DNA of 64,000 nucleotides from contig JAPPUL010000024.1 of NCBI GenBank assembly GCA_026874595.1, positions 186,001 through 250,000 on the forward strand, in the 5' to 3' direction. The notes beneath the pieces are model-generated. The model searched no databases, was not told the origin of the DNA, and worked only from the letters and a program-made list of their open reading frames with translations. Position 1 is the first letter of the stretch. Every line of letters begins with the position of its first letter. The position numbers and the translations under genes were made by a program. Positions 1-17,098 of the stretch are shown here, in pieces. This stretch comes from Sipunculus nudus. Taxonomy: Eukaryota; Annelida; Sipuncula; Golfingiida; Sipunculidae.

Positions 1-245
1 TCAGCCCGTCCCGTTTATTTATTCACAAGTTTTTACAAGGAAATGGCCGTGGCCCCCGCTACGCCAATTGATTCATCCGGTCGGCTGCGGGCCTGAATTG
101 ACATTTGGCCCGATGGACCCTACACAAAACGAGCAAACTGCGCTGATTGTCGCTCATACCTACACGTGTCTTTGTCTTACTAAAACGCGTGTCATCGTGC
201 ATTCCTGCATGACTCTGTGCATTCAGTTTTCCCTCCGTTTATAAA
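1..245. other. Low-copy segment at unit junction, no gene seen
   Basis: Together with 16939-17098 this forms about 400 bp per unit that shows no similarity to the other sub-repeats in the window. It includes an imperfect inverted pair (CGGGCC and GGCCCG near 88-113) and repeated GTGCATTC words near 197-225. No open frame, splice pattern or RNA fold that I recognise is present. The same segment recurs at 17099, 27927, 45029 and 55856. Confidence 0.6.
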
Positions 246-410
246 GTTTATATGGACATACTGACAAAGTGACCCAAGACCGAGACCAGATGACTTTACC
301 AGGTTATGGAGAAGACTCAGAGTAAGAACATAAGCTATAGTTTATGTAATTGAGGCTTTGGGTTTTAGAGATATGGCCAAATTAATGATATGTGTGTGAG
401 GGTCATGTGC

Positions 411-427
411 AGCGCCCCCTAGCGGCG
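411..427 (-). promoter_or_regulatory. CTCF-like motif in first 330-bp copy
   Basis: The forward strand reads AGCGCCCCCTAGCGGCG; the reverse complement CGCCGCTAGGGGGCGCT fits the bilaterian CTCF core (CC[AG][CG][CT]AG[AG][GT]GGC). Equivalent sites start at 17509, 28337, 45439 and 56266. Binding is not shown; this is a motif match only. Confidence 0.5.
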
Positions 428-740
428 AATTCTGGAAAATGAAAAATCGGTTTCGAGATATTAGTGTACGACATAAGATGTAACAGTTTTAAAAGGATTC
501 TTTCAAAACTGTGACCTGTAGAATGCTATATGTGAGACGCCAGAACCGGTAAGCAGGCGAATTTGATGAAAACTGAGAAACAGACGGACACACTGACAAA
601 GTGACTCAAGATTGAGTCGAAATGACTACACCAGGATTTAGGAAAGACTCAGAGGATGAAAATAAGCTTTAGTTTATGTAATTTAGGCTCACAGTTTTGG
701 AGATATGGCCAAAACATGATATGTTGGGGAGGTTTGCATA

Positions 741-760
741 CAGCGCCACCTAGCGGCTGC
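741..760 (-). promoter_or_regulatory. CTCF-like motif in second 330-bp copy
   Basis: The forward strand reads CAGCGCCACCTAGCGGCTGC; on the reverse strand the core is CCGCTAGGTGGCGCT, a good CTCF-type match. It sits 330 bp after the motif at 411, as expected for the tandem duplication. Equivalent sites start at 17839, 28667, 45769 and 56596. Confidence 0.5.
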
Positions 761-879
761 ATTCAAAAAATGGAAAAACCGTTTCGAGATAATAGTGTAG
801 GACTTATGATATGTCAGTTTCAAAATGATTCCTGCAATAATGTGGCCTTTGGCGCAAGATGAATGAAATCACGAAATAT

Positions 880-1330
880 CTCTATTCACGAGATATTTTA
901 CGAGATACTGCAAGACTTGTTATGAAATCTTGTAGTACTAGTTGAATGCTACCTGATGCAAAAAACTAGGTCTCTCTAGCTTTAGCACTGACAAAGTTAG
1001 AAAAATAAGACCCCTTAATTTCGAATATCATGACTTTTCCCCCAAAATTTATAACCATGGTTACGGCAAATTTGAGTCAGCTACACACCAGATGACAGGC
1101 CTTGGAATGACAATTAAAATGAGCTATTGTTGAAGTAGATACAACTAATAGTCACAAAGATATGAAGAAAAAACCGTTTTGATAGGTTTGATGACCTTGA
1201 CCTTGACCTTTCACTTATTTTGACCAAAAACAATAAGGCACCTAGAATTTTGGTTGTTTATCATCCCTGAAAGTTTCAAGGTGATTGTGGCAAAATTGTG
1301 GCCAGGAGAGTGATGACAAACAAACAAATG
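880..1330 (+). repeat. Module relic with X-box and nuclear-receptor-type string
   Basis: This is a diverged copy of the right half of the 2.4-kb module. It has short inverted TCTC/GAGA words near 893-905, an X-box-like palindrome ATAACCATGGTTAC (1051-1064), the TGACCTTGACCTTGACC string (1192-1214), and the tail word GTTTCAAGGTGATTGTGGC near 1273. The X-box to receptor-string spacing is 147 bp, against 148 in complete modules. It passes into the ~325-bp tandem repeats that follow. Confidence 0.7.
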
Positions 1331-2166
1331 AGGTTGATACGACCATATTTGACCAAGTGATGAAGAAAAGAAAATTTCGAGGTTTTTCGATGACCTTGTC
1401 CTTGACCTATATTGACGAAAAACGATAGAGCACCTTGCATTTTATTTTTTCGTCATCTCTGTAAGTTTCAAGGTGATTGCGGCAAAACTGTGGCTTGTAG
1501 TGTCGTAAATGTGAGACAGAACAACAAGGCCGTTGACAAAATTGACAACAACAGAGGAACAGACAGACATACTGACAAGGTGACACATGGCCAGCAAAGG
1601 CTGAGCACCCTTTGATATGGGGAATGGAAAGACGAACAAAATGAGGTAAGAATGAGGTTGATACGACAATTTGTGACAAAGTTTTGAGGAAAATACGGTT
1701 TCGAGGTTTTTTGAGGGTCTTGACCTTGACCTTTGACCTATTTCAATAAAAAACAAAAGACTGCCTAGAATTTTGCTTGTCCATCATCTCTAAAAGTTTC
1801 AAGGTTATTGCTGCAAAACTATGGCCTGTAGTGTCGTAAATGTCCGAAAGAACAACAAGGCCGTTAAAAAAATTGACAACAACCCTGAAACAGACAGACA
1901 TACTGACAAGGTGACACAAGGCCAACAAAGGATCATCATACCAGGATATGGGCAATGGAAAGACGAACAAAATGAGGTAAGAATGAGGTTGATACGACAA
2001 TTTTTAACCAAGTTATGAGGAAAATAAAATTTTGAGGTTTTTTGATGACCTTGACCTTAACCGTTTACCTTCATTAACCAAAAACAATAGGGCACCTAGA
2101 AATTTAATTCTCCATCATCTCTGAAAGTTTCAAGGTGATTGTGGCAAAATTGTGGCCAGGAGAGTG
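1330..2166 (+). repeat. Three tandem copies of a ~325-bp repeat
   Basis: Copies begin with GAGGTTGATACGAC at 1330, 1654 and 1985 (periods 324 and 331); the third is truncated and runs into (CAGA)n. Each contains a TGACCTTGACC-type string (1388, 1721, 2046) and the tail TTTCAAGGTGATTG with TGTGGC. The first two copies also share an AACAACAAGGCCGTT block and AGACAGACATACTGACAAGG. The reverse strand stays open across the first two copies, but the peptides match nothing I recognise and I do not call a gene. Confidence 0.85.
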
Positions 2167-2197
2167 CAGACAGACAGACGGACAGACAGACAGACAG

Positions 2198-2236
<39 letters not shown>
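2167..2236 (+). repeat. (CAGA)n microsatellite with CGGA interruptions
   Basis: About 70 bp of CAGA repeats with GACG interruptions, directly after the repeat tail and before a hairpin. Counterparts start at 19265, 30093, 47195 and 58022. Read on the reverse strand it gives spurious CLSVCLSV peptides. Confidence 0.95.
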
Positions 2237-2254
2237 TACGCAACTGAGCAATAT

Positions 2255-2283
2255 GCTTGCCGAAATCTTTGATTCCGGCAAGC
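2255..2283 (+). repeat. Single ~30-nt hairpin after the microsatellite
   Basis: GCTTGCCGAAATC and GATTCCGGCAAGC are near-complementary arms. This is the same palindrome as in the hairpin minisatellites at 15311 and 16768, here as a single copy. The recurring order microsatellite then hairpin suggests this is the right end of a mobile-element-like module. Confidence 0.7.
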
Positions 2284-2312
2284 AACTAGCTGCAAAAGTC
2301 GCGGTGTTATCA

Positions 2313-3201
2313 GCAGTTACGTGAAATCATGTTTTTTTCTCGCTTGACGAGATATAGTACGAGATTTGGCAAGACGAGCAGTTTTATTATGTCAAGACGG
2401 CCAAACGTTACGAAATGGCGAAAACTAGATCCGTCTAGCTGTAAAATCGCCGAGTTATAAGCATTTCCGTGTACTCTCGTGTTTTCTCGTTTGACGAGAT
2501 ATGGTGCAGGATTTGGCCAGTCTTGTAGATTTGTCATATCAAACTCTCTAAATGTTATGAAATGGCGAAAACTACATCTGTCTAGCTGTAAAAGTTGCCG
2601 AGTTATTAGCATTTCTGTGAAATCTCCTTTTTTATCGTTTGACGAGATATGGTGCGAGATTTGGCCAGTCTTGCAGGTTTGTCATGTCAAGCCGTCCAAA
2701 TGTTAATGAATGCCAAAAACTAGACCTGTCTAGCCGTGAAAGTCGCCGACTTATATGCATTTCTGTGAAATCTCGTTTTTCCACATTTGACCAGATGTAG
2801 TGCGAGATTTCGCCAAGTATCGCAGTTTTACTATGTCAAGTTGGCCAAATGTTACCAAATGCCAAAAACTAGACCTGAGTAGCTGTAAAAGTCGCCTAGT
2901 TATAAGCATTTCCATGATATCTCGTTTTTTTCTCGCTTGACGAGATATGGTGCGAGATTTGGCCTGATTTCTTTTCTGGCGTGTCAAGCTGGTCATATGT
3001 TATGAAATGCCGAAAACTAGACCTGTGTAGCTGTAAAAGTCGCCGAGTTATAAGCATTTCCGTGAAATCTCGGTTTTTCTCGTTTGACGATAAACCGAGC
3101 GAAATTTGACGAGACTTGCAATTGAATGACTTATAACCAAGGGGAAGCAGCCTTATGCAAAAAACTAGACCCTTGAAACATAAATATTAACCGAGATAGA
3201 A
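2313..3201 (+). repeat. Six tandem monomers of ~148 bp
   Basis: Monomers start with GCATTTC(C/T)GTGAAATCTCG-like words at 2313, 2461, 2609, 2757, 2906 and 3054 (periods 148, 148, 148, 149, 148). Each holds the small hairpin TCTCG-TTTGA-CGAGA or a variant, then GGTGCGAGATTTGG, a CAAATGTTA word, AAAACTAGA and a CTGTAAAAGTCGCCGAGTTA end. The monomers are clearly diverged, so this array is old. The 148-bp length is close to the DNA length of one nucleosome core. Confidence 0.9.
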
Positions 3202-3249
3202 GCCAAAAACTGCATATTTTCAGATCGTCAAGTTTAACCCACAAATTTG

Positions 3250-3411
3250 GTAACCATGGTAACGGCAGCACACAGCTACATGTGCGGAGGAATAAGCCAA
3301 TGTTCCTAGTTTAAGATACAACGATAAAAATTGTGCCATGTTTAAAATTATTGTAGATATTGCAGAAAAATGATATGTGTTAGTGTTTCAGGTACCACGC
3401 CCCCTGGTGGC
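3250..3411 (-). promoter_or_regulatory. X-box plus CTCF-like motif pair
   Basis: GTAACCATGGTAAC at 3250-3263 resembles the RFX X-box palindrome GTTGCCATGGCAAC. CCACGCCCCCTGGTGGC at 3395-3411 is, on the reverse strand, GCCACCAGGGGGCGTGG, a near-perfect CTCF core. The 145-bp spacing is the same as in the four complete modules. Copies of the CTCF-like site start at 20493, 31321, 48423 and 59250. Confidence 0.5.
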
Positions 3412-3849
3412 TATTTCCAAAAAATGAAAAACTGATTTCGAGATATTTATAAATAACACAAAATATATCAATTTCAAAGCCATTGTTAAAAAAATGCAAC
3501 CTGTAGGTCATATTTAATGAAATCTCGAAGACTCTCGTTTGACGAGAAACGGTGCGAGATTTTGCAAGATTTTTGATTGGATCACCGAGAGCTCACCAAG
3601 GGCTACAAGATGCAAAAAATTGACCTCTCCAGCATAAAAACTGACAGAGTTAGAAGCTGAAAACTGCATATTTTCAAAATTCAAAAGTTTTACCCCAAAA
3701 ATAGAGAAATCTGGCAATAGCGCACTTTGGCACCTATGCGCAAAAATAAGCCCATGGTACCCAGTTGAAGGTGCTGTGATGGAAATGGCCCAATGTTTAA
3801 TAGTTCTGGAGGTATAGCACCAAAACAAATTTTCATGTTTTTTCATCTG

Positions 3850-4157
3850 CAACGCCCCCTGGCGGCCATTTCCAAAATCTGAAAAAACAATTTCGAGATA
3901 TTCTTGTGTTACATAAAATATCTCAGAATCAGTACGATTGCTGCAAATTTGAAAAATATCAGGAAATTCCATGATTTCTCCCTGAAATTGCGTAACCATG
4001 GTAACAGCAAATTTAAGTAAGCTACATGTCAAAAGAAAGGCCAGGTGATGACGAAATAAATGAGCTATTGCAGAAGTGGATAAGCCTATTTATGGCGAAG
4101 TTATAGTGCAAAAACCGTTAACCATACCTGTCGTGACCTTGACCTTGACCTTTGACC
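3850..4157 (-). promoter_or_regulatory. CTCF-like, X-box and nuclear-receptor-type cassette
   Basis: CAACGCCCCCTGGCGGCC (3850-3867) reads GGCCGCCAGGGGGCG on the reverse strand. GTAACCATGGTAAC lies at 3992-4005. The string TGACCTTGACCTTGACC continuing to 4157 contains, on the reverse strand, GGTCAAAGGTCA (a DR1-type pair) and TCAAGGTCA (an extended half-site of the ERR/SF-1 type). Motif evidence only. Confidence 0.5.
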
Positions 4158-4254
4158 TATTTTAACCAAAAACAATAGGGCACCTAGAAATTATGTTTTT
4201 CATCATCCCTGTAAGTTTCAAGGTGATTGTGGCAAAATTGTGGCCAGGAGAGTG

Positions 4255-4278
4255 CAGACAAACAAACAAACAGACTAG
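4255..4278 (+). repeat. CAGA/CAAA microsatellite
   Basis: A short CAGACAAACAAACAAACAGA tract between the preceding tail and the module head CTAGACGACCATAGGTCG. The head has a small inverted repeat, CGACC-ATA-GGTCG. The same junction recurs at 6606-6660 and 9000-9060. Confidence 0.85.
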
Positions 4279-4740
4279 ACGACCATAGGTCGGGACTTGC
4301 CGGAAGTAGAAATTAGAAAGTCAAACTAACAGACAACAAACAGCAGAAAGGCAAAAAACATTTGGAACAGGTCAAATGACCAACCCCTATTGTTTAGAAA
4401 ACATAAGCACATCTTTATGTGGTTTTACTGATTTTCAAAAGTCGCAGACGAGTAGACAGACAAACAGACAGACAGACAGAAAAAAAACTCCAGGTGAAGG
4501 TCGTGTACTCATGCCATACAAAATTGAAAGCATGAATAAAATAAGCCACAGTCTATTCGAATAAAAATTCTTCATACTTTGAATTTCATGAATTGTAACC
4601 TACATAAGGTCACTATGGTAAAGGAAGAATATGAAAGAGTAACCAAGAGGATAAACGCATTAAATCTAGTTTCAGATGCTACAATCAAAGTTGTGACACA
4701 GTTTATAGTTTTGGAGATATGGTACAATAATGGTTACTGC

Positions 4741-4756
4741 AGCGGCATCTGGGTGG
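4741..4756 (-). promoter_or_regulatory. Decayed CTCF-like site of module A
   Basis: Module A reads CAGCGGCATCTGGGTGG where module B has CAGCGCCATCTGGTGG, a good CTCF-type match. A C-to-G change and an inserted G spoil the core. All five macrosatellite units share this decay, so it predates the amplification. Confidence 0.5.
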
Positions 4757-4803
4757 TTATTTTCCAAAATGATAAAAGTAAGCTTCGCGAAATTTTATTA
4801 GTA

Positions 4804-4805
<2 letters not shown>

Positions 4806-4835
<30 letters not shown>
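4806..4835 (+). repeat. (TTA)10 microsatellite
   Basis: Thirty bases of TTA repeats in module A; the same length is seen at 21904, 32732, 49834 and 60661. The matching tract of module B has 19 or 20 copies, so module A is stable while module B varies. Confidence 0.95.
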
Positions 4836-4838
<3 letters not shown>

Positions 4839-5008
4839 GATGTATAATTTATATTTAACCCCTACCCCTAATTGCAAACCGGATATCCGTCCCTGATTTG
4901 ACACACCCAACTGCAAATCGGATCCGTCCCTGATATTAAAGTTGTGATTGTGCTTACCAGCAACACTATCTCTGCATTCCGTAACATTTGGGGGAGCCTC
5001 TCTCTTTG

Positions 5009-5034
5009 TTTTTTTTTTTTTTTTTTTTTTTTTT
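5009..5034 (+). repeat. Poly-T tract, 26 T in L1
   Basis: A homopolymer whose length separates the unit types: 26 here, 46 at 22107-22152 (S2), 27 at 32935-32961 (L3), 46 at 50037-50082 (S4) and 29 at 60864-60892 (unit 5). Homopolymer lengths are prone to sequencing error, but the two classes are well apart. Confidence 0.9.
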
Positions 5035-5068
5035 AAGGGATTATCCTTTACAACAGGTCATTAAGCTC

Positions 5069-5227
5069 TCAATGCATTGAAATCCTCAAAGTGCAGCCAC
5101 ACAAAGAATGAAAAGAGGCCACCACCAAAAGCACAGGTGGGATCAATCCGGATTGTGTCTTTTCATGGACCATCGCACATCCATAGAACAAAGCTCCAAC
5201 TGTCAAATGTAATGCCCCTGCCGACAT
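5069..5227 (-). other. Small reverse-strand open frame, 52 codons, exon-like relic or chance
   Basis: Reading from an ATG at 5227 to a TGA at 5069, the peptide begins MSAGALHLTVGALFYGCAMV and holds two hydrophobic stretches. Module B (7460-7618 region) keeps the frame open with three amino-acid changes and no silent ones. The third module (about 13816-13883) keeps only the first 22 codons, with three silent and two replacement changes, before a different sequence follows. An in-frame stop precedes the ATG. I do not recognise a protein family. It may be a captured exon fragment, or chance. Confidence 0.2.
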
Positions 5228-5261
5228 TTACTATTACATACTGCCATCGCTTATGGTCATG

Positions 5262-6000
5262 GCAATTGGATGTACTTTTTTTATTTGAAGAAAAACGATG
5301 CAAGATTCGAAGAAACTTACAATATAATCATATAATGTGACCGAGAATGTTAGACGCTATCAAATGCTGAAAACTATAAGTCTTCCACATAAAAATAACA
5401 CAATTATAGGCGTTTCTTTGAATGGTCCCATGTTCTCGTTTGACAAGAAATGGTGCGAGATATGACGAGATATTCACTTTTATCACTTAAAACTAGTCAA
5501 ATGATTCTTGAACAATAGAAAAATAAAATATCTAGCATGAAAATGACCGACATAAAGACATTTGTTTGAAATCTAAAATATTCTCGTTTGGCGGGAGATG
5601 ATACGAGATGTGGCGAGATTTGCAGTGTAATCATGTCCAGCTTCTGAAATACTACCAAATGCTGAAAACTACTCCATTTTAGCATTAACCGTGATCAAGT
5701 TATAAGCATTTCTGTGAAATCTCGTAATTTCGCGTTTGGTAAAATCCGAGCGTGATTTGACGAGAATTGCAATGGAATGGCTTAGAACCAAGAGAAAGCA
5801 GTCTTATGATAAAAACTAGACCCTTAAAGCATAAATATTAACCGAGATAGAAGCCAAAAACTACATATTTTCAGATCGTCAAGTTTAACCCCAAAATTTG
5901 GTAACCATGGTAACGGCAGCACAAGGCTATATGTAGGAAGGAATAAGGCAATGATCCTAGTTTTAGATGCGACAAAGAAAATTGTTATATGCTTAATATT
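5262..6000 (+). repeat. 148-bp monomers of module A
   Basis: Monomer starts at 5262, 5410, 5558, 5706 and 5853, with steps of 148, 148, 148 and 147. The hairpin word TTCTCGTTTGACAAGAAA and its variants, AAAATGCTGAAAACT, and a TATAAGCATTTC-type junction recur. The fifth monomer carries the first X-box at offset 48. Confidence 0.85.
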
Positions 6001-6511
6001 TTTTTAGATATTGCGGAAAAATGAAAAGTTGTAGTGTTTCCGGTACCACGCCCCCTGGTGGCTATTTTCGAAAAATGAAAAAACAAGTTCGAGATAATAC
6101 AGAAAAACAGAAAATATGTCACTTTTAGAACATAAGCTGTAAAACTGCCACCTCTAAATCGTATTTAATGAAATCTCGAAAAATCTCGTTTGACGAAAAA
6201 TGGCACGAGATTTTGCGAGACTTGCATTAATTTTCCATAGAGCATATAAAATGCTACACAATGCAAAAAACTAGACCTCACTAACTTAAAAAATGAGAAA
6301 TTTGGAGTGAAATTTTCGAATTTTCCAATTTCCCCCCAAAAATACGTTACCATGGTAACAATTGAACGGAAAAATTTGATAGCAATTGGAAAGCTAACAT
6401 AAAGAGGAGTAAAATGAGCTACAGATTATGCGGCTACGATTATTATTGACGAAGATATGAAGAAAATAAAAATTTTAGGTGTTTTGGTGACACTGACCTT
6501 GACCTTTCACC
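5901..6511 (-). promoter_or_regulatory. Motif cassette of module A: X-box, CTCF-like, X-box, receptor string
   Basis: GTAACCATGGTAAC at 5901, CCACGCCCCCTGGTGGC at 6046, GTTACCATGGTAAC at 6346 and TGACCTTGACCTTTCACC at 6494. Start-to-start spacings are 145, 300 and 148. Relative to the monomer start at 5853 the offsets are 48, 193, 493 and 641, which are 48, 45, 49 and 49 modulo 148. The CTCF-like core is on the reverse strand. Function is inferred from motif similarity only. Confidence 0.5.
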
Positions 6512-6605
6512 GATCATGACCAAAAACAATAGGCTCCGAGAAGAATCGATTTTACACTTAATGTAAAAGTTTCAGAGCGATTGCTTTAAAATTGTGGCTT
6601 GTAGC

Positions 6606-6648
6606 GCACAGACATACAGACAGACAGACAGACAAACAAACAAACAAA
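6606..6648 (+). repeat. CAGA/CAAA microsatellite between modules A and B
   Basis: ACAGACATACAGACAGACAG followed by CAAA repeats, directly before the module B head. It marks the junction of the two tandem modules. Confidence 0.9.
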
Positions 6649-7110
6649 CTAGACGACCATAGGTCGGGACTTGCCGGAAGTAGAAATTAGAAAGTCAAAC
6701 TAACAGACAACAAACAGTAGAAAGGCAAAAAACATTTGGAACAGGTCAAATGACCAACCCCTATTGTTTGGAAAACATAAACACATCTTTATGTGGTTTT
6801 ACTGAATTTCAAAAGTCGCAGACGAGTAGACAGACAAACAGCCAGACAGACAGAAAAAAAAACTCCAGGTGAAGGTCGTGTACTCATGCCATACAAAATT
6901 GAAAGCATGAATAAAATAAGCCACAGTCTATTCGAATAATTCTTCATACTTTGAATTTCATGAATTGTAACCTACACAAGGTCACCATGGTAAGGGAAGA
7001 ATATGAAAGAGCAACCAAGAGGATAAACCGTTAAATCTAGTTTCAGATGCTACAATCAAAGTTGTGACACAGTTTATAGTTTTGGAGATATGGTACAATA
7101 ATGATTACTG

Positions 7111-7126
7111 CAGCGCCATCTGGTGG
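7111..7126 (-). promoter_or_regulatory. Intact CTCF-like site of module B
   Basis: CAGCGCCATCTGGTGG reads CCACCAGATGGCGCTG on the reverse strand, a strong CTCF-type core. Counterparts start at 24229, 35038, 52159 and 62969. The module A copy of this site (4741) is decayed. Confidence 0.5.
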
Positions 7127-7173
7127 TTATTTTCCAAAATGATAAAAGTAAGCTTCGCGAAATTTTATTAGTA

Positions 7174-7175
<2 letters not shown>

Positions 7176-7232
<57 letters not shown>
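7176..7232 (+). repeat. (TTA)19 microsatellite
   Basis: Nineteen TTA copies here and in S2 (24294-24350) and S4 (52224-52280), but twenty in L3 (35103-35162) and unit 5 (63034-63093). Confidence 0.95.
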
Positions 7233-7234
<2 letters not shown>

Positions 7235-8292
7235 TTTATATGATGTATAATTTATATTTAACCCCTACCCCCAACTGCAAACCGGATATCCGTCCCTGAT
7301 TTGACACACCCAACTGCAAATCGGGGATCCGTCCCTGATATTATAGTTGTGATTGTGCTTACCAGCAACACTATCTCTGCATTCAGTAACATTTCGGGGA
7401 GCCTCTCTCTTTGTTTTTTTTTTTAAAGGGATTATCCTTTACAACAGGTCATTAAGCTCTCAATGCATTGAAATCCTCAAAGTGCGGCCATACAAACCAT
7501 GAAAAGAGGCCACCACCAAAAGCACAGGTGGGATCAATCCGAATTGTGTCTTTTCATGGACCATCGCACATCCATAGAACAAAGCTCCAACTGTCAAATG
7601 TAATGCCCCTGCCGACATTTACTATCACATACTGCCATCGCCTATGGTCATGGCAATTGGATGTAATTTTTTTATTTGAAGAAAAACGATGCAAGATTTG
7701 AAGAAACTTACAATATAATCATATAATGTGACCGAGAATGTTAGACGCTATCAAATGCTGAAAACTTTAAGTCTTCCACATAAAAATAACACAATTATAG
7801 GCGTTTCTTTGAATGGTCCCATGTTCTCGTTTGACAAGAAATGGTGCGAGATATGACGAGACATTCACTTTTGTCACTTAAAACTAGTCAAATGATTCTT
7901 GAACAATAGAAAAATAAAATATCTAGCATGAAAATGACCGAGATAAAGACATTTGTTTGAAATCTAAAATATTCTCGTTTGGCGGGAGATGATACGAGAT
8001 GTGGCGAGATTTGCAGTGTAATCATGTCCAGCTTCTGAAATGCTTCCAAATGCTGAAAACTACTCCATTTTAGCATTAACCGTGATCAAGCTATAAGCAT
8101 TTCTGTGAAATCTCGTAATTTCTCGTTTGGCAATAAACCGAGCGAGATTTGACGAGACTTGCAATTAAATGGCTTAGAACCAAGAGAAAGCAGCCTTATG
8201 CAAAAAACTAGACCCTTAAAACATAAATATTAACCGAGATAGAAGCCAAAAACTACATATTTTCAGATCGTCAAGTTTAACCCAAAAATTTG

Positions 8293-8903
8293 GTAACCAT
8301 GGCAACGGCCGCACAAGGCTATATGTCGGATGGAATAAGGCAATGATCCTAGTTTTAGATGCGACAAAAAAAATTGTTATTTGCTTAATATTTTTTAAGA
8401 TATTGCGGAAAAATGATAAGTTGTAGTGTTTCCAGTACCACGCCCCCTGGTGGCTATTTTCGAAAAATGAAAAAACAAGTTCGAGATAATACAGAACAAC
8501 AGAAAATTTGTCACTTTCAGAACCTCAGCTGTAAAACTGCGACCTCTAGATCGTATTTAATGAAATCTCGAAAAGTCTCATTTGACGACAAATGGCACGA
8601 GATTTTGCGAGACTTGCATTAATTTAGCACAGAGCGTATAAAATGCTACACAATGCAAAAAACTAGAGCTCTCTAACTTAAAAATTGAGAAATTTGGAGG
8701 GAAATTTTCGAATTTTCTGATTTTCCCCCAAAAATACGTTACCATGGTAACCATTGACCGGACATATTTTCTAGCACATGGAAAGCTAACATAATGAGGA
8801 ATAAAATGAGCTACAGATTTAGCAGCTACGATTATTATTGACGAAGATATGAAGAAAAATCTGTTTTAAGAGTTTTTGGTAACCCTGACCTTGACCTTTG
8901 AAC
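8293..8903 (-). promoter_or_regulatory. Motif cassette of module B
   Basis: GTAACCATGGCAAC at 8293 (closest of all copies to the RFX X-box consensus), CCACGCCCCCTGGTGGC at 8438, GTTACCATGGTAAC at 8738 and TGACCTTGACCTTTGAAC at 8886. Spacings are again 145, 300 and 148; offsets from the monomer start at 8245 are 48, 193, 493 and 641. The receptor-type pair is weakened at its end (GAAC instead of GACC). Confidence 0.5.
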
Positions 8904-9044
8904 GGTCATGGCCAAAAACAATAGGCTCCGAGAAGAACCGATTTTACACTTAATGTAAAATTTTCAGAGCGATTGCTTTAAAATTGTGGCTTGTAGCGCG
9001 CAGACATACAGACAGACAAACAAACAAACAAACAAACAAACAAA

Positions 9045-9241
9045 CTAGACGACCTGAGGTCGAACGCTTGCCGGAAGTGACCGGAAATAAGACAGCGAAA
9101 TAGATGGACAGTTACTAGGCAGACAGACAGGGAACATTTGGATCTGATCAAATGAAAAACCTCTATCATGGGGAAAACAGTAGCACATATGAATAAGGTC
9201 TTGCTGATTTTCAAAAGTCAAAGAGGAGTAGACAGAGAGAC

Positions 9242-9281
<40 letters not shown>

Positions 9282-9295
9282 GGATAGAGAGACAT
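9045..9295 (+). repeat. Diverged module head, present only in L units
   Basis: CTAGACGACCTGAGGTCG, CTTGCCGGAAGT, then CTGATTTTCAAAAGTC and AGGAGTAGACAGA match the start of modules A and B with many changes. A GACAGAGA/CAGA tract lies at 9229-9294. After this the module similarity stops and low-copy sequence begins. This is the left end of the segment missing from S units. Confidence 0.75.
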
Positions 9296-11300
9296 TAATA
9301 GTGTTGTTATTAGTAGCCATCCTATACAAGATAATCCATTTTTGGACAGAAATAAAAATAAAGGAAGTCCAACTGAATCCTTGGCAGTTCTCCTATTCTT
9401 GAGTGCTGGAAATAAGAAAAGCACTGAAAATGAAACTTGAAGAGTTGAACGTCCAGAATGCCGAAATGCAAGCGAAGCCGCGTTCGTGTTAGACAGAGAC
9501 CCGACCTCTGGGTAAGGGAGACGTGACCTTTCATTCCTGGACAAATAGGTCGGCCTGAGGACATCTTCAAGTCTGATGATGGCTTAAATTAGGGCTGTCC
9601 TTGAAGAAAAAAGGCAGTCGGTCAGCCTGCGTCCGGGAATTATAAAATTCCAAGAAGTCCTGCCCATCACGGATTAACTGTAATGTCCCCTTCGTGTAAT
9701 GTGAAATTTAATATATGTTAAAAATTGGAATCTTTGGTTAAAAAAGGAAAGCAGGGATTTTTAAGGAGTCTGAAGTAGTAAGTAATAAGATAAAAAATTG
9801 TGAGGCCCTAGTTCCGTGGTGGGTTAGGACTTTATATATAAAACTATTTACTGGCATGAGAAAGGGGTGCTGTCAAATTTTTTGGCGCCTGCCGCACGTT
9901 TGTGAATAAAACGGTACACTTGACACGGGCGCGATGGAAATTTAAGAGGAAAGGTAGTAATCCCAAGCCGTAGTTGAGTTGTTTTGACCCCAGAGTTTGC
10001 AGTCCTAGCTGAAATAGGCATGGGACGGGCTCTTTTTTAAACCCGGAACGCCAGAAGAGGCTGGAGATTGAATGAAGGATTGGGCCATTTTTTTATCCGA
10101 AAAACCTGGGAATTGACAATTAAAAAAAATGACAGGGACCTTCTTAGCCCGTTCCAGCTCAGGGAACGGTCATTAGAATATTGTCGGGAATCCATATTAT
10201 CCTACCTGTGGGCTGGGACGGTCCAGAAAACCGCAATTATACGGGTATCCATAAAATTGTATGTCAATTTTTGTCATTAATAAATACATATACATCTATA
10301 ACGCGGACAGCTGGAGAATTCGCGGAGAATTCATCATGATGATATTATTAAATGTGAGCAAAGGTACAATTTATGTTTTGTATCATATTTCCTTAAGAAC
10401 CTGTAATTTTGATATCCTGCATGGTTTTGTTACGGTTTGCACAGTAAACTGTTGAAAAAATATATAGTGTTTAGCGTTTTCGTCTGATGTAAGATCGGTA
10501 GTCAATGTTAGCTGGTGATCCAGATTGGTGTTAGTGGCAGTCCCACATTGTTTGCGCTGGTTATTATTTCGGTAATTTAACAGTGAATAAATGTCTTTAG
10601 AGTAATATAGTGGTAGATTTTAAATGATTTTAACGTGTAATTAAAAGTATCATTGCATATAAAATCTCTCCGTGAATTGTCCGGGAATTCCCCGCGTTTA
10701 CATATAAACGCATTTACCAGCCGTATGAATGTTTTTGTCCGCTTTCATAATGTTTGCCGTGCCCCGGACACAAATTTAAGACGAGATGGACTAAACCCCG
10801 CCCCTGTAGGATTGTTTGGACTCTGAAGAAACGAACCCTCGCAGGAAATGCGGTGGGACGGGCTCTTTCTTATTCGATGAACGCTCGAAAAGAGTGGTGA
10901 ATGATTGAAAAAATAGGGTCATTTTCACTGTCATCTTGAATAACGGAATAAATATTTTTTTTTAAATTCATAGAGACTTGGTCATCCAATAACAGCAGAA
11001 AAAAATGTTCTTTCAAATGTTGTGTGGTGTCCATTGTACCCTCGCCCACCGCCGGGATCCAAAGAGAAGCCTGGATTTTACTGCAAAAAAAACACAAACA
11101 CCCCCCCCCCCAAAAAAAAAAACAAAAACAAAAAAACTTTTATTCATTTTATTTTTATTTTTTATTACTGGATGTAATTGAATATCATGGTTTATTTATT
11201 GAAAAAATAAGATGCAATTCATTGGATGAAAAGAGATTTTATTAAATATATTGATACATGTTTATAACAGTTTGATATTTGATTTTTTTTAATTTATAGA
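9296..11300. other. L-only low-copy region, no gene seen
   Basis: About 2 kb without the module motifs. An old, weak internal duplication is visible: GGGACGGGCTCTTT occurs at about 10022 and 10856, each followed by a similar 'GAATGA...GGNCATTTT' stretch. The longest open frames are about 70-108 codons, without family features. A C-run followed by an A-rich stretch lies at 11100-11127. I see no splice-site series, promoter or RNA gene. Its copy in L3 is 37226-39230. Confidence 0.6.
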
Positions 11301-11315
11301 CAGACAGTTTGTTAC

Positions 11316-13566
11316 CTCAAATCTGTACTCATGGTCCAACATGCATGTATTTGGTGTTCTTAGACCCATTTTAGGGTGTATATCCATGATAACAAGATAA
11401 TATTACCTTGTTCCCACCAGCAAACATTTCAAGCCCCCAGAAAGCTGATTTCAGCTGAGGACAGTATATGGCTTATTATACACAGGCAAATAGTGTTTTG
11501 GACCACCTCATCTCCACCAGACTCATCACACACACCTGGTTTGGCTATCATTGCAATCCATTTACACCCACTGGCTGGAATCTCAAAGCATTGGGTTCAA
11601 ATCCCTCAGAAAAAAAATTAGGGCCAGTTTGAATTTCCAAATCTGGACACAGTGGACATAGATATATACAGAAAAAATCCATTTTTTCCCCTCAAATCTG
11701 TACTGATGGTCCCACAAACCTGGTTTTGGTGTCATTAGGCCCACTAAAGTGTGTATATACAGGGAAACAAGATAATATTACCCTGTTCCCACAAACAAAA
11801 ATTTCATGCCCCCAGAAACCTGATTTCAGGCCAGTTTATGCTTATACACAGTCAAATAGGTTCTGGCCCCCCTCATCCCCACAAAACTCAACACACACTC
11901 CTGGTTTGGGTATCATTGCAATCCATTTACACCCACTGGCTGGCATCACCAAGCATTTGGCTCAACTCCCTCAGAAAAAAAATTAGGGCCAGTTTGAATT
12001 TCCAAATCTGGACACAGTGAACATAGTGATATACAGAGAAAATCCATTTCCCCCCCCCCCCCCCCTCAAATCTGTACTGATGGTCCCACAAACCTGGTTT
12101 TGGTGTCATTAGGCCCAGTTTAGGGTGTATATACAGGGAAACAAGATAATATTACCCTGTTCCCACAAACAAAAATTTCATGCCCCCAGAAACCTGATTT
12201 CAGGCCAGTTTATGCTTATACACAGTCAAATAGGTTCTGGCCCCCCTCATCCCCACAAAACTCAACACACACTCCTGGTTTGGGTATCATTGCAATCCAT
12301 TTACACCCACTGGCTGGCATCACCAAGCATTTGGCTCAACTCCCTCAGAAAAAAAATTAGGGCCTGTTTAAATTCCCAAATCTGGACACAGTGAACATAG
12401 TGATATACAGGGAAAATCCATTTTTTTTTTACCTCAAATCTGTAATGATGGTCCCTAAAACATGGTTTAGGTGTCATTAGGCCCAATTCAAGGTGTATAT
12501 ACAGGGAAACAAGATAATATTACCCTGTTGACACAAACAAGAATTTCAAGCCCCCAGAAAGCTGATTTCAGGCCAGTTTATGCTTATACACAGTCAAATA
12601 GGTTCTGGCCCCCCTCATCCCCACAAAACTCAACACACACTCCTGGTTTGGGTATCATTGCAATCCATTTACACCCACTGGCTGGCATCACCAAGCATTT
12701 GGCTCAACTCCCTCAGAAAAAAAATTAGGGCCAGTTTGAATTTCCAAATCTGGACACAGTGAACATAGTGATATACAGAGAAAATCTATTTCCCCCCCCC
12801 CTCAAATCTGTACTGATGGTCCCACAAACCTGGTTTTGGTGTCATTAGGCCCAGTTTAGGGTGTATATACAGGGAAACAAGATAATATTACCCTGTTCCC
12901 ACAAACAAAAATTTCATGCCCCCAGAAACCTGATTTCAGGCCAGTTTATGCTTATACACAGTCAAATAGGTTCTGGCCCCCCTCATCCCCACAAAACTCA
13001 ACACACACTCCTGGTTTGGGTATCATTGCAATCCATTTACACCCACTGGCTGGCATCACCAAGCATTTGGCTCAACTCCCTCAGAAAAAAAATTAGGGCC
13101 TGTTTGAATTCCCAAATCTCGACACAGTGAACATAGTGATATACAGGGAAAATCCATTTTTCCCCCTCAAATCTGTACTGATAGTCCCACAAACCTGGTT
13201 TTGGTGTCATTAGGCCCAGTTTAGGGTGTATATACAGGGAAACAAGATAATATTACCCTGTTCCCACAAACAAAAATTTCATGCCCCCAGAAACCTGATT
13301 TCAGGCCAGTTTATGCTTATACACAGTCAAATAGGTTTTGGCCCCCTTCATCTCCACCAGACTCTTCACAAACACCTGGCTTGGGTTTCATTGCAATCCA
13401 TTCACACCCACTGGCTGGCATCTCCAAGCATATAGCTCAACTTCTCCAGAAAAAAATATAGACCACTTTAAAGTTTATCAAATCTGGTCATAGTGGTTTA
13501 TGCAGAAATCAATTGTTCTGATCTCAAATCTGAAATAGTGGTCATAGAACATTGGTTGGTTCTTGT
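11316..13566 (+). repeat. ~370-bp tandem satellite, six full copies plus a partial
   Basis: Copies begin with CTCAAATCTGTACT at 11316, 11691, 12065, 12433, 12801, 13166 and a partial at 13523 (periods 375, 374, 368, 368, 365, 357). Each has GATAATATTACC, a TTTCAAGCCCCCAGAAA or TTTCATGCCCCCAGAAA word, CACCCACTGGCTGG and a variable C or T run. Copies 2 to 5 are almost identical; the first and last are diverged, as expected when unequal exchange homogenises the middle. The repeated 86-89-codon frames are a by-product. In L3 the array is 39246-41496; S units lack it. Confidence 0.95.
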
Positions 13567-13815
13567 ATGATTTTATTCAATTTACAATCAATATGCAGGA
13601 AAACCTGGCATTTTATTTTACTTCAATACACCAACAATAAACAATCTAAGGACAAGTGAACAGGCTACCATACATATCTTAGGGAAAGGAAAACAGCAAA
13701 GGTTGTTTACATTGAGGACACATGGCAACTAGGTGGTTGGCGCTGGTCTGTGAAGCTTACGAAGCAGCAATCAAAGGAAGACGATAACAACACAATAGAA
13801 GTCTTCTTCATGGGC
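13567..13815. other. L-only low-copy stretch between satellite and third module
   Basis: About 250 bp from the satellite end to the block CATGGGCCATCGCACACCC, where module similarity starts. No gene or repeat partner is seen in the window. Confidence 0.55.
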
Positions 13816-15292
13816 CATCGCACACCCATAGAACACGGCTCCAACTGTCAAGTGTAATGCCCCTGCCGACATTTACTATCACATACTGCCGCCACTTATG
13901 GTCACGGCAATAGGATGTACTTTTTTATTTGAAGAAAAAACGATCCCAGATTTGACGAAACTTACAATATAAACACATAATGTGACCGAGAGTGTTAGAC
14001 GCTATCGAATGCTGAAAACTAAAGGTCTTCAGCATTAAAATAACAGAATTATAGGCGTATCTTTGAATGGTCCCATGTTCTCGTTTGACAAGAAATGATG
14101 CGAGATATGACGAGATATTCAATTTTGTCACTTCAAACTAGTCAAGTGAATTTCGAACAATAGAAAAATAAAATCTCTGGCATTCAAATGACAGAGATAT
14201 TGACATTTGTTCGAATTCTCGAATATTCTCGTTTGGCGGGAGATGGTACGAGATGTGGCGAGATATAAGTTATTATCTTGTTAAGCTCCCAAAACGCAAC
14301 AAAATGCTGAAAACTGCTCCTCTTTAGCCGAAAAGGTGACCAAGTTATATGCATTTCTGTGAAATCTCGTAATTTCTCGTTTGACGGAAAACAGAGCGAG
14401 ATTCTACGAGACTTGCAATTAACTGCATTAGTGGCAAGGGAATGCTACCTCATGCAGAAAACTAGACACTTGTAGTATAAATATTAACAGAGATAGAAGC
14501 AAAAAACTTATTATTTTCAGATTGCCAAGTTTTACCCCAAAATTTGGTTACCATGGTAACAGCAGCGCAAAGCTACATGTACGCAGGAATAAGCCGACGA
14601 TCCTAGTTTCAGATAAGACAGTAAACATTGTGCCACGTTTAATATTTTTTTTGGTATTGCAGAAAAATGGTAAGTTGCAGTGTTTCCAGTACCACGCCCC
14701 CTGGTGGCTAATTTAAAAAAATGAAAAAACAAGTTCGAGATAATACAGAAAAACAGAAAATATGTCACTTTTAGAACCTTAGCTGTAAAACTGACACCTC
14801 TAAATCGTTTTTAATGAAATCTCGAAAAGTCTCATTTGGCGACAAATGGCACGAGATTTTGCGAGACTCCCGTTAATTTTCCATAGAGCATATTAAATGC
14901 TACACAATGCAAAAAACTAGACCTCTCTAACTTAAAAAATGAAAAATTTTTAGTGAAATTTTCGAATTTTCTGATTTTCCCCCAAAAATACGTTACGATG
15001 GTAACAATCGACCAGAAAAATTTGCTAGCACTTGGAAAGCTAACATAAAGAGGAATAAAATGAGCTACAGATTATGCGGCTACGATTATTATTGACAAAG
15101 ATATGAAGAAAGTAAAAATGTTAGGTTTTTTGGTGACCCTGACCTTGACCTTTGACCGATCATGACCAAAAACAATAGGCTCCGAGGAGAACCAATCTTA
15201 CACTTAATGTATAAGTTTCAGAGCGATTGCTTAAAAACTGTGGCCTGTAGCGCGTGTACATACAGACAAACAGACAGACAGACAAACAAACA
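13816..15292 (+). repeat. Third module (diverged, L units only)
   Basis: It starts inside the block shared with modules A and B (CCAACTGTCAAGTGTAATGC at 13849). The 148-bp monomers start at 14055, 14203, 14351 and 14499. The cassette is 14547-15157, and the CAGA/CAAA tract (15265-15290) closes it. It lacks the head, TTA and poly-T part of modules A and B. Its copy in L3 is 41746-43222. Confidence 0.85.
14547..15157 (-). promoter_or_regulatory. Motif cassette of third module
   Basis: GTTACCATGGTAAC at 14547, CCACGCCCCCTGGTGGC at 14692, a one-base-decayed second X-box GTTACGATGGTAAC at 14992 and TGACCTTGACCTTTGACC at 15140. Spacings are 145, 300 and 148, as in the other complete modules, despite many substitutions between them. 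Confidence 0.5.
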
Positions 15293-15310
15293 TACGCGGG
15301 TGACCAACAT

Positions 15311-15527
15311 GCTTGCGAAAATCGAAGATTTCCGGCAAGCAACAAACATACGGAACTGACCAACATACTTGCCGAAATCTTTGATTCCGGCAAGTAACAA
15401 ACAGACAGACAAACAGACATACGCAACTGACCAATATGCTTGCGGAAATCGAAGATTTCCGGCAAGCAACAAACAAACATACGCGGGTGATCAACATGCT
15501 TGCGAAAATCGAAGATTTCCGGCAAGC
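15311..15527 (+). repeat. Hairpin minisatellite, four palindromes
   Basis: Near-perfect 29-30-nt palindromes (arms GCTTGCGAAAATC and GATTTCCGGCAAGC or variants, three-base loop) start at 15311, 15367, 15438 and 15498. They are separated by spacers of 26-42 nt built from CAAACATACG and ACTGACCAACAT words. The first palindrome is lost in S units. The L3 copy is 43241-43457. Confidence 0.85.
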
Positions 15528-15660
15528 AATAAAGTCTGGACTGTGCCTCCAACATGTATGATAATAGATAGGGCCCGGAAAGGCCGACACGCACCGCTGC
15601 ACACGCCGGCCGCCCCCCGTAAGGACCCTGCCAGCACTTGCGGCGACGGCACTTGACTTG
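15528..15660. other. GC-rich low-copy stretch
   Basis: A short GC-rich island (about 15570-15650, with CACACGCCGGCCGCCCCCCG) in otherwise AT-rich DNA, present in L and S units (26356-26488, 43458-43590, 54286-54418). It contains several CpG sites. I see no gene. It could be a remnant of another element. Confidence 0.5.
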
Positions 15661-16750
15661 GTGGTTTGGTGAAACACGGCGCGAGATCTGACGAAACTTA
15701 CAATATGACCCCTGAATGTGACTGCGAGTGTCAGGCGCTACCCAACGCTGAAAACCATGTGTATGTAGCGTAAAAAATGACAGAATTATAGGCATTTCTT
15801 TGAATGGTCCCGTGTTCTCGTTTCACGAGAAACGTAGCGAGATATGACGAGACTTTCTATTGAATGACTAAGAAGTAAACTAATGCTATCTAACGCCAAA
15901 AACCAGAGCTTTCTATCGCAAATATTGACAGAGATAGAAGCAGGAAAACTCCGTATTTCAGATTGTCAAGTTTTACCCCAAAATTCGGTAACCATGGTAA
16001 CGGCAGCACAAGGCTAAATGTACGAAGGAATAAGGCAATGATCCTAGTTTTAGATGCGACAAAAATTATTGTTATATGCTAAATATTTTTTTAGATATTG
16101 CGGAAAAATGATATGTTACAGTGTTTCCAGTACCACGCCCCCTGGTGGCTATTTCCGAAAAATGAAAAAACAAGTTCGAGATAATACAAAACAACAGAAA
16201 ATATGTCACTTTCAGAACCTTAGCTGTAAAACTGCGACCTGTAAATCGTATTTAATGAAATCTCGAAAAGTCCCATTTGACGACAAATGGCACGAGATTT
16301 TGCGAGACTTACATTAATTTCGCATAGAGCATATTAAATGCTACGCATTGCAAAAAACTAGGCCTCTCTAACTTAAAAAATGAGAAATTTGGAGGGAAAT
16401 TTTCGAATTTTCTGATTTTCCCCCAAAAATACGTTACCATGGTAACCATTGACCGGAAAAATTTGCCAGCACTTGGATAGCTAACATAGTGAGGAATAAA
16501 ATGAGCTACAGATTATGCGGCTACGATTATTATTGACGAAGATATGAAGAAAATAAAGATTTTAGGTTTTTTGGTGACCCTGACCTTGACCTTTGACCGA
16601 TCATGACCAAAAACAATAGGCTCCGAGGAGAACAGATCTTACAGTTTATGGATAAGTTTCAGAGCGATTGCTTAAAAACTGTGGCCTGTAGCGCGTGTAC
16701 ATACAGACAAACAAACAGACAGACAAACAAACAAACAAACAAACAAACAT
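15661..16750 (+). repeat. Fourth module
   Basis: Right half of the 2.4-kb module: 148-bp monomers at 15792 and 15940, cassette at 15988-16598, the tail with TTTCAGAGCGATTGCTT and a CAGA/CAAA tract (about 16704-16749). Present in all complete units: 26489-27578, 43591-44680 and 54419-55508. Confidence 0.85.
15988..16598 (-). promoter_or_regulatory. Motif cassette of fourth module
   Basis: GTAACCATGGTAAC at 15988, CCACGCCCCCTGGTGGC at 16133, GTTACCATGGTAAC at 16433 and TGACCTTGACCTTTGACC at 16581. All four motifs are intact, and offsets from the monomer start at 15940 are 48, 193, 493 and 641. Confidence 0.5.
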
Positions 16751-16767
16751 ACGCGGGTGATCAACAT

Positions 16768-16917
16768 GCTTGCGAAAATCGAAGATTTCCGGCAAGCAAC
16801 AAACAGACATACGCAACTGACCAACATGCTTGCCGAAATCGAAGATTTCCGGCAAGCAATAAACAGACATTTGCGACTGGCGAACCTGCCTGCAGAAATC
16901 GAAGATATCCGGCAAGC
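16768..16917 (+). repeat. 60-bp hairpin minisatellite, three palindromes
   Basis: Palindromes start at 16768, 16828 and 16888, exactly 60 bp apart: a 30-nt palindrome and a 30-nt spacer. Arms are GCTTGCCGAAATC and GATTTCCGGCAAGC. The third copy is altered (CTGCAGAAATC, GATATCC). Counterparts are at 27596-27745, 44698-44847 and 55526-55675. Confidence 0.9.
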
Positions 16918-16921
16918 AATG

Positions 16922-16938
16922 AAAAAAAAAAAAAAAAA
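16922..16938 (+). repeat. Poly-A tract
   Basis: Seventeen A in L1, S2 and L3, sixteen in S4. This one base is the whole length difference between S2 and S4. The tract follows the hairpin minisatellite and could be a tail of an inserted element. Confidence 0.9.
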
Positions 16939-17098
16939 CGGTTCGGGTCCTTTCCTGAAGGACACAACGACTGAAACTTTGGACAGCAATCACCTGCATG
17001 CGCACAGACGTGCAGGCACGCGTTTTAGGTCTGACCAGGTCTGACCAGGTCTGAGGGCACACTGGAATGGTGACGTTCCTATGGCCCTGAGAAAATGG
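16939..17098. other. Low-copy segment at unit end with 10-bp repeat
   Basis: It joins the segment at the next unit start to make about 400 bp of non-modular DNA. It holds AGGTCTGACC repeated (17027-17055, about 2.8 copies), CTGCATGCGCACAGACGTGC with near-inverted parts, and CGGTTCGGGTCC. No gene is seen. Confidence 0.6.

Follow-up and report, generated by a model that had tools for sequence, protein, structure and literature searches.

The motif-bearing modules in this stretch of Sipunculus nudus DNA form the central repeats in an extensive, dispersed family of non-autonomous Helentrons (HINEs), with elements of 4.4-7.0 kb and perhaps 8.5 kb, and core-masked alignments show the CTCF-type and receptor-type modules to be paralogues in which the core was swapped in place on one ancestral scaffold. 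The motif "grammar" described in the initial annotation is the arrangement of one subfamily within this wider HINE family. Our preferred explanation, to which we give a probability of about 0.5, is that of HINE modules with swappable cores whose predicted sites are bound by host factors that favour copying, single copies decaying neutrally; of this explanation we infer the binding, the germline action and the effect on copying. Host factors would bind the CTCF-like, receptor-like, X-box and SOX-like sites of the element and, once bound, would keep its DNA accessible or insulated in germline cells. Lineages with working sites would be copied more, by rolling-circle machinery or a Helentron Rep protein supplied elsewhere, and the individual copies would then decay neutrally. 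The names receptor, SOX and RFX would suggest gonad-type factors.

Composite modules in a tandem array

The window, the whole 64-kb stretch analysed (positions 186001-250000 of contig C78), belongs to a 1.4265-Gb assembly of 153 contigs, in which 12 contigs among C1-C17 measure 61-111 Mb. Self-alignment shows it to be a single tandem array with units beginning at 1, 17099, 27927, 45029 and 55856, which come in 17.1-kb and 10.8-kb forms; the 27.9-kb period has 99.96% identity across 36 kb of the window. Because the later modules are near-identical duplicates, independent modules come from unit 1 only, and its features are as follows.

1..17098, no strand: first 17.1-kb array unit (self-alignment)
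252..534, + strand: 330-bp-type CTCF unit without X-box, site at 410-428, 20.0 bits (ad hoc CTCF matrix)
580..862, + strand: 330-bp-type CTCF unit, site at 741-759, 19.0 bits (ad hoc CTCF matrix)
1559..1841, + strand: 330-bp-type unit with a receptor core instead (core swap), homologous to the units at 252..534 and 580..862 (alignment)
3250..3411, + strand: partial module, X-box / CTCF-like (motif search)
3852..4157, + strand: CTCF-like site, X-box and receptor string in another arrangement (motif search)
5901..5914, no strand: X-box-like palindrome 1, GTAACCATGGTAAC (motif search)
6046..6064, - strand: CTCF-like site, 18.0 bits (ad hoc CTCF matrix)
6346..6359, no strand: X-box-like palindrome 2, GTTACCATGGTAAC (motif search)
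6494..6511, - strand: nuclear-receptor-like direct repeats, with AGGTCA half-sites on the - strand (motif search)
6520..6533, - strand: CCAAAAACAATAGG, the least-changed window of the receptor-type module (conservation analysis)
6608..6654, - strand: ACAG/ACAA (GTCT/GTTT) microsatellite (tandem-repeat analysis)
6648..6666, - strand: end motif of the element, CGACCTATGGTCG-TCTAGT (ACTAGACGACCATAGGTCG in + sense), recurring at 4274 and, in variant form, at 9044 (pattern search)
7111..7129, - strand: CTCF-like site, 22.1 bits, in a divergent unit (ad hoc CTCF matrix)
8293..8903, + strand: second complete module, X-box / CTCF-like / X-box / receptor (motif search)
14547..15157, + strand: third complete module (motif search)
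15312..15526, no strand: tandem hairpin units CTTGCCG..CGGCAAG, the subterminal inverted repeat with its own complement (sequence, fold)
15988..16598, + strand: fourth complete module (motif search)

In the first complete module, the X-box 15-mer, the CTCF-like 15-mer, the second X-box and the receptor 18-mer start at 5900, 6048, 6345 and 6494, and the same order recurs at 8292/8440/8737/8886, 14546/14694/14991/15140 and 15987/16135/16432/16581. The gaps are 148, 297 and 149 in all four modules, which bears out the equal spacing of the initial annotation (145/300/148 when counted from other start letters), and the partial modules preserve the spacing as claimed, from X-box to CTCF-like site (3249 to 3397) and from X-box to receptor string (3991 to 4140). 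The "fixed grammar" is exact within these four modules, whereas among other genome copies the spacing varies with indels: across unit 1 and the 23 loci L009-L031, the X-box to CTCF distance is 148 in 49 of 60 pairs (range 147-150), the X-box to receptor distance is 148 in 62 of 83 pairs and 142 in 13, and the X-box to X-box distance is 445 in 72 of 104 strand-doubled pairs and 455 in 12. The accompanying remark that shared descent yields equal spacing is upheld, and fixed spacing as a sign of function was rejected, since shared descent accounts for a spacing that varies genome-wide.

Chance origin of each motif in the window is excluded by shuffles, as X-box, CTCF-like and receptor matches number 96, 30 and 35 against shuffle means of 1.12, 0.38 and 0.06, the X-box count being partly doubled by its palindromic form and most matches being duplicates of unit 1. 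Unit 1 holds nine CTCF-like sites of 18.0-22.1 bits by an ad hoc CTCF matrix. CTCF-like sites that the initial annotation leaves out here lie at 412, 741, 3852 and 7111. Sites of at least 14 bits number 40 in the window, or about one per 1.6 kb, on one strand only, against a shuffle mean of 0.35. A subset of modules has an X-box (RFX-like) about 148 bp from the core, and the receptor type also has CCAAAAACAATAGG, which we take to be SOX-like. In element orientation, the CTCF-like, AGGTCA-type and ATTGTT-type motifs presumably all stand in their usual sense.

Other repeats accompany the modules. Tandem periods of 148, 297, 331 and 445 bp occur in the window together with ACAG/GTCT tracts. The 10.8-kb units lack approximately 9046-15340, and the junction (9045/15341) lies inside ACAA/hairpin repeats common to the modules, which is what unequal recombination between modules predicts. 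A 368-bp tandem repeat of about 5.8 copies, at 11315-13456 and 39245-41386, occurs in the long unit form and not in the 10.8-kb form. Ahead of the X-box modules lies an additional periodic unit of about 148 bp with TCTCGTTTGACGAGA and GCGAGA motifs, at 2286-3090 and, by eye, at 5433-5630, with a period near nucleosome length. The units at 4740 and 7111 form a further class with a TTA-repeat tail; the CTCF-like site at 7111 scores 22.1 bits, and in the sister unit at 4740 the site is altered by one inserted base and one substitution.

Helentron-type ends and a shared scaffold

The 659-bp query has 15 copies on C78 between 49,284 and 248,369, in steps of approximately 10.8, 17.1 or (twice) 18.6 kb, and 25 more full-length places on 11 other contigs at 97-98% identity. 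These 40 are the best of 3501 candidates and are 97-100% identical over the query; as only they were scored, the identities describe the top copies. Twenty loci of about 10 kb each around the off-array matches were used to see the module context, and in these loci the modules sit within larger dispersed elements. The sample for module statistics, unit 1 and L009-L031, is small and neighbourhood-biased, coming from around 97-98%-identical matches in one genome. One DNA pattern searched against viral_contigs and against genome_contigs gave 0 matches in each. A protein-coding reading was rejected, the 21 frames of at least 170 aa in unit 1 and L009-L031 resembling, by eye, repeat read-through or other mobile-element proteins. 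Among frames near the elements (L027, L026, L021, - strand), some resemble by eye the end of a hAT transposase or parts of a LINE endonuclease/reverse transcriptase.

Read on the - strand of the module, an element opens with TTGCTTGCCGGAA(A)TC, after which come the complement of this repeat, a GTCT/GTTT microsatellite and the modules, and its 3' part consists of GATTTCCGGCAAGC (GAATTCCGGCAAGC in L015), GTT, the palindrome CGACCTATGGTCG and TCTAGT. HINE-type ends were found in L010, L027, L026 and L015, and elements with both ends read measure 4432, 6906, 6981 and 8541 bp, the last with an uncertain end pairing, as L015 offers three candidate ends. HINEs are characterized, in the passages drawn on from PMC4067079 and PMC7492417, by subterminal inverted repeats, an adjoining inverted repeat, a microsatellite, central repeats and a 3' palindrome, and it is on these features that the assignment rests. 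Subterminal inverted repeats of 11-15 bp are present in 4/4 two-ended elements, with TTGCTTGCCGGAA(A)TC at one end and a near-complement by the other. The 5' hairpin folds at -13.5 kcal/mol (z -6.5), with 0/200 shuffles as stable for the one sequence folded. Microsatellite and central tandem repeats are represented by the ACAG/GTCT tracts and the repeat periods of the window. The 3' palindrome CGACC-TAT-GGTCG precedes TCTAGT in 4/4, with a weak fold (z -1.2), and is partly built into the search pattern.

Insertion may be at T-rich or TT sites, as in HINEs. The 5' flank ends in TTTA or TTCA in 6/6 cases and the 3' flank starts with TT in 4/5 (AT in L014). The A of the 5' flank and the T after CTAG also match the Helitron A/T rule, that T being imposed by the search pattern. 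The canonical Helitron 5' TC end is absent, the 5' end being TTGC in 6/6, and the canonical 3' CTRR end appears as CTAG in 4/4, as the search pattern demanded. No target-site duplication was seen by eye in the four elements, the pairing in L015 being uncertain. Of the outer flanks, ten were compared, taken from six loci, and none matches any of the other sampled loci.

The shared scaffold is apparent when the cores are masked. A core-masked profile built from two CTCF-type 330-bp units (412 and 742) matches the X-box CTCF modules with E values down to 1.4e-13, and matches 5/9 receptor-type units of unit 1 (E 2.9e-9, 8.3e-9, 1.4e-8, 3.8e-8 and 4.2e-7). Pairwise masked alignments support homology in many pairs (z up to 8.1) and not in all, the units at 4740 and 7111 hardly aligning. 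The CTCF-type unit C742 and the receptor-type unit N1721 align over 309 bp at 48.5% identity with two single-base gaps, one of them terminal, and their cores lie in register, flanked by well-matched blocks. Among 275 core-spanning modules found with the cores masked in the search (67 modules whose match did not span the core were left out), 141 carry a strong and 18 a weak CTCF-like core, 96 carry a receptor core and 20 neither; with near-copies removed, these become 51, 11, 40 and 8 (n=110). Equal-length control segments from the same modules contain a CTCF-like or receptor core in 0/951 cases. Within the 330-bp class a receptor core is present in 6/83 modules, a count for which the second-round profile may itself contain such rows.

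Conservation of the cores and the level of selection

Alignments took long matches only (73, 83 and 65 of 123, 108 and 96 assigned modules), obtained by searches in which the core motifs were masked, and classes were compared after dropping copies more than 95% identical, at a mean pairwise identity of 0.69-0.75. In the X-box CTCF class (20 modules), changes in the CTCF 19-mer number 1.3 per module, compared with a median of 3.35, and 0/329 non-overlapping windows are as low. The receptor 18-mer of the receptor class (34 modules) has 0.88 changes against 4.03 (0/332 windows as low), and CCAAAAACAATAGG, picked from the same data, has 0.24 against 3.09 (0/344). The X-box was rejected as a specially conserved motif, having 1.6 changes against a median of 2.35 in the first class and 1.53 against 3.07 in the second, where 55/344 and 38/344 windows, respectively, are as low or lower. 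For the 330-bp CTCF class (22 modules, with 3 receptor-core rows set aside, or 5 in the fixed/private counts below), the CTCF 14-mer has 1.14 changes against 2.23 (10/275 windows) and the 19-mer 1.91 against 2.95 (25/260). Some non-motif windows are almost as conserved as the motifs, and in the 330-bp class many exceed the CTCF core. The initial annotation had noted that the motifs survive with at most one or two changes while the spacers change, had thought this apparent conservation worth testing, and had proposed the comparison made here; on this sample, the CTCF-like and receptor motifs do change far more slowly than spacers in the X-box classes, contrary to the refuting outcome it had named, but the X-box is unexceptional and the least-changed window is CCAAAAACAATAGG, which had gone unnamed.

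Simulations were made for the CTCF core in both classes. Core changes are 1.32 against 3.79 expected in the X-box class (one gapped row of 20 omitted) and 1.91 against 3.43 in the 330-bp class, and the cores reach 16.0 and 17.6 bits on average, whereas simulation at flank-derived rates gives 6.2 and 9.1, with 0/400 replicates as extreme in each comparison; since the copies share ancestry, the simulated nulls are too narrow and these conservation figures optimistic. When as many changes are placed at random, the 8 and 13 distinct CTCF-core variants, taken together, outscore all 1000 placements in both classes and, by the ad hoc matrix, show a variation that appears to follow the known tolerance of CTCF.

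Changes private to single copies were then set beside those fixed between subfamilies. In subfamilies of recent copies, private changes strike the CTCF core and flank at 5/893 against 85/13995 bases and at 8/646 against 121/8336, and the receptor core and flank at 5/768 against 60/9019; CCAAAAACAATAGG has 2/448 and the X-box 3/658 and 3/448. Judged from these raw rates, private changes strike the motifs at about the flank rate in young subfamilies, which suggests that selection acts on those lineages of the element that propagate, and not through use of individual copies by the host. The fixed changes, with p values given per test and uncorrected for the number of tests, are 3 against 8.9 expected for CTCF in the X-box class (p 0.13; 0/278 control windows as low), 11 against 12.9 for CTCF in the 330-bp class (p 0.44; 102/209), 9 against 20.2 for the receptor string (p 0.077; 2/263) and 1 against 13.4 for CCAAAAACAATAGG (p 0.005), a motif chosen post hoc for being conserved. 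For the X-box, the two classes give 7 against 5.3 and 3 against 9.0 (pooled p 0.32), and CTCF pooled over classes gives p 0.14. Left out of these counts are 15, 28 and 17 copies that stand singly or in pairs, and a group that has fewer than three distinct rows. No pre-chosen motif is significant in the sampled subfamilies, and the effect of a change on the CTCF score is not significantly different between private and fixed changes (p 0.21, n=16 and 15). The direction of these results suggests a possible fit with lineage-level selection and neutral decay of copies, short of proof.

Plain shared descent would make the family a radiation of HINEs whose spacing and motifs agree through kinship, the conserved windows arising from uneven recombination or gene conversion between modules. 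This account agrees with the 97-100% identity of the best 40 of 3501 candidates and the duplicate nature of the window copies, with spacing that differs among copies, with non-motif windows nearly as or more conserved, and with private motif changes near the flank rate and named motifs that are not significant in the fixed/private tests. We nevertheless consider it doubtful, as the low core change persists after copies above 95% identity are dropped, at class identities of 0.69-0.75, and as the agreement of the CTCF-core variants with CTCF tolerance is equalled by 0/1000 simulations in either class. If instead the host had co-opted copies as insulators, as in CTCF macrosatellites such as DXZ4, selection would act on copies in place. 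The dense single-strand CTCF-like sites of the window and the 15 repeats of the query in the C78 array are in keeping with this, but host-kept sites would not be expected to take private changes in their CTCF and receptor cores about as often as the flanks do, and scored copies are also present on 11 other contigs, so that we regard host insulation as very improbable.

The conserved motifs may also serve replication or recombination proteins of the element itself, as signals that only resemble host-factor sites. Related bivalve satellites are reported to have a pair of conserved motifs in common, to which the portion of PMC5139131 consulted assigns no binding factor, and the present element has a strong terminal hairpin, both of which would suit such signals; two unrelated well-known host motifs at one scaffold position, with changes that track CTCF specificity, would not, and we think this explanation unlikely. 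Returning to host factors that favour copying, a broader form of the preferred explanation would make this rolling-circle family a modular carrier of host regulatory sites, with one position swapped between CTCF and receptor, in which lineage-level, non-host selection keeps binding specificity and the host's chromatin architecture and gonad-type factors (receptor, SOX, RFX) are used for propagation; we advance this form tentatively, with distinctly less than even confidence.

Relation to known elements and RFX proteins

Known from earlier work are the ends and layout of HINEs, mammalian mobile elements that spread CTCF sites, and CTCF macrosatellites; a HINE with CTCF-like and receptor-like cores swapped on one scaffold is new, and is so called because no such description appears among the matches listed. 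Among those matches from the open literature, judged by titles and abstract openings, there was no HINE with CTCF or receptor sites and no swapped cores on one scaffold, and a literature search for the receptor string gave no match. Cg_HINE of the Pacific oyster, in the sections of PMC7492417 drawn on, has in common with the present element subterminal inverted repeats, a complementary inverted repeat beside the 5' one, a GTCY-type microsatellite, central repeats mostly of 140-180 bp, a 3' palindrome and many scattered copies. Its centre consists of one, exceptionally two, monomer clusters, whereas the present centre is a composite of CTCF-like, receptor-like and X-box sites with core-swapped paralogues, and the term "transcription factor" is absent from the text of that paper. 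The DINE-1/HINE elements of insects and mites share the end layout, microsatellite and optional central repeats and perhaps the T-rich insertion sites, but no such regulatory modules are described in the parts of PMC4067079 consulted. In the same parts, the proto-Helentron of Phytophthora has a 5' TT, a 3' CTAG and insertion between A and T, in which the present element appears alike; the proto-Helentron is a coding element of about 14 kb in an oomycete, and the present element additionally has subterminal inverted repeats.

Mouse B2 SINEs, as outlined in the material consulted, are mobile elements dispersing CTCF sites, as the present family disperses CTCF-like ones, but they are mammalian retrotransposons, whereas the present family is of Helentron type with several predicted factor sites per copy. 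The DXZ4 macrosatellite, as outlined there, is likewise a long tandem array of kilobase units, with CTCF sites where ours has CTCF-like ones, but it is an X-linked mammalian locus where CTCF binding has been shown, and ours is an amplified mobile-element cluster with dispersed relatives. The BIV160/Cg170 bivalve satellites, likened to the present family by description, are diverged repeats partly tied to Helitron-type elements, and their two shared conserved motifs are not tied to host factors in the portion of PMC5139131 consulted. CTCF is reported to have originated in the bilaterian ancestor, and its sites to be enriched at domain borders in a squid (PMC10658181, in part), and HINEs occur in large numbers in oysters and flies (PMC7492417, PMC4067079, in part). 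If proteins do bind the cores, HINEs could supply invertebrates with CTCF sites on a large scale, and comparing private with fixed mutations gives a general way to test whether the element or its host benefits from sites in mobile DNA.

The X-box palindrome is present with ordinary conservation, and the genome encodes an RFX DNA-binding domain that scores above the family cut-off. The corresponding exon we take to be RFX1/2/3-like. Weak RFX-domain matches were also seen in open frames of 214-659 aa at C8:24497900, C1:62563936, C10:28537034 and C2:79844454 (L035, L036), and these frames could represent a mobile-element protein with an RFX-like domain. One of the weak matches adjoins a frame that by eye resembles a PIF1-type helicase.
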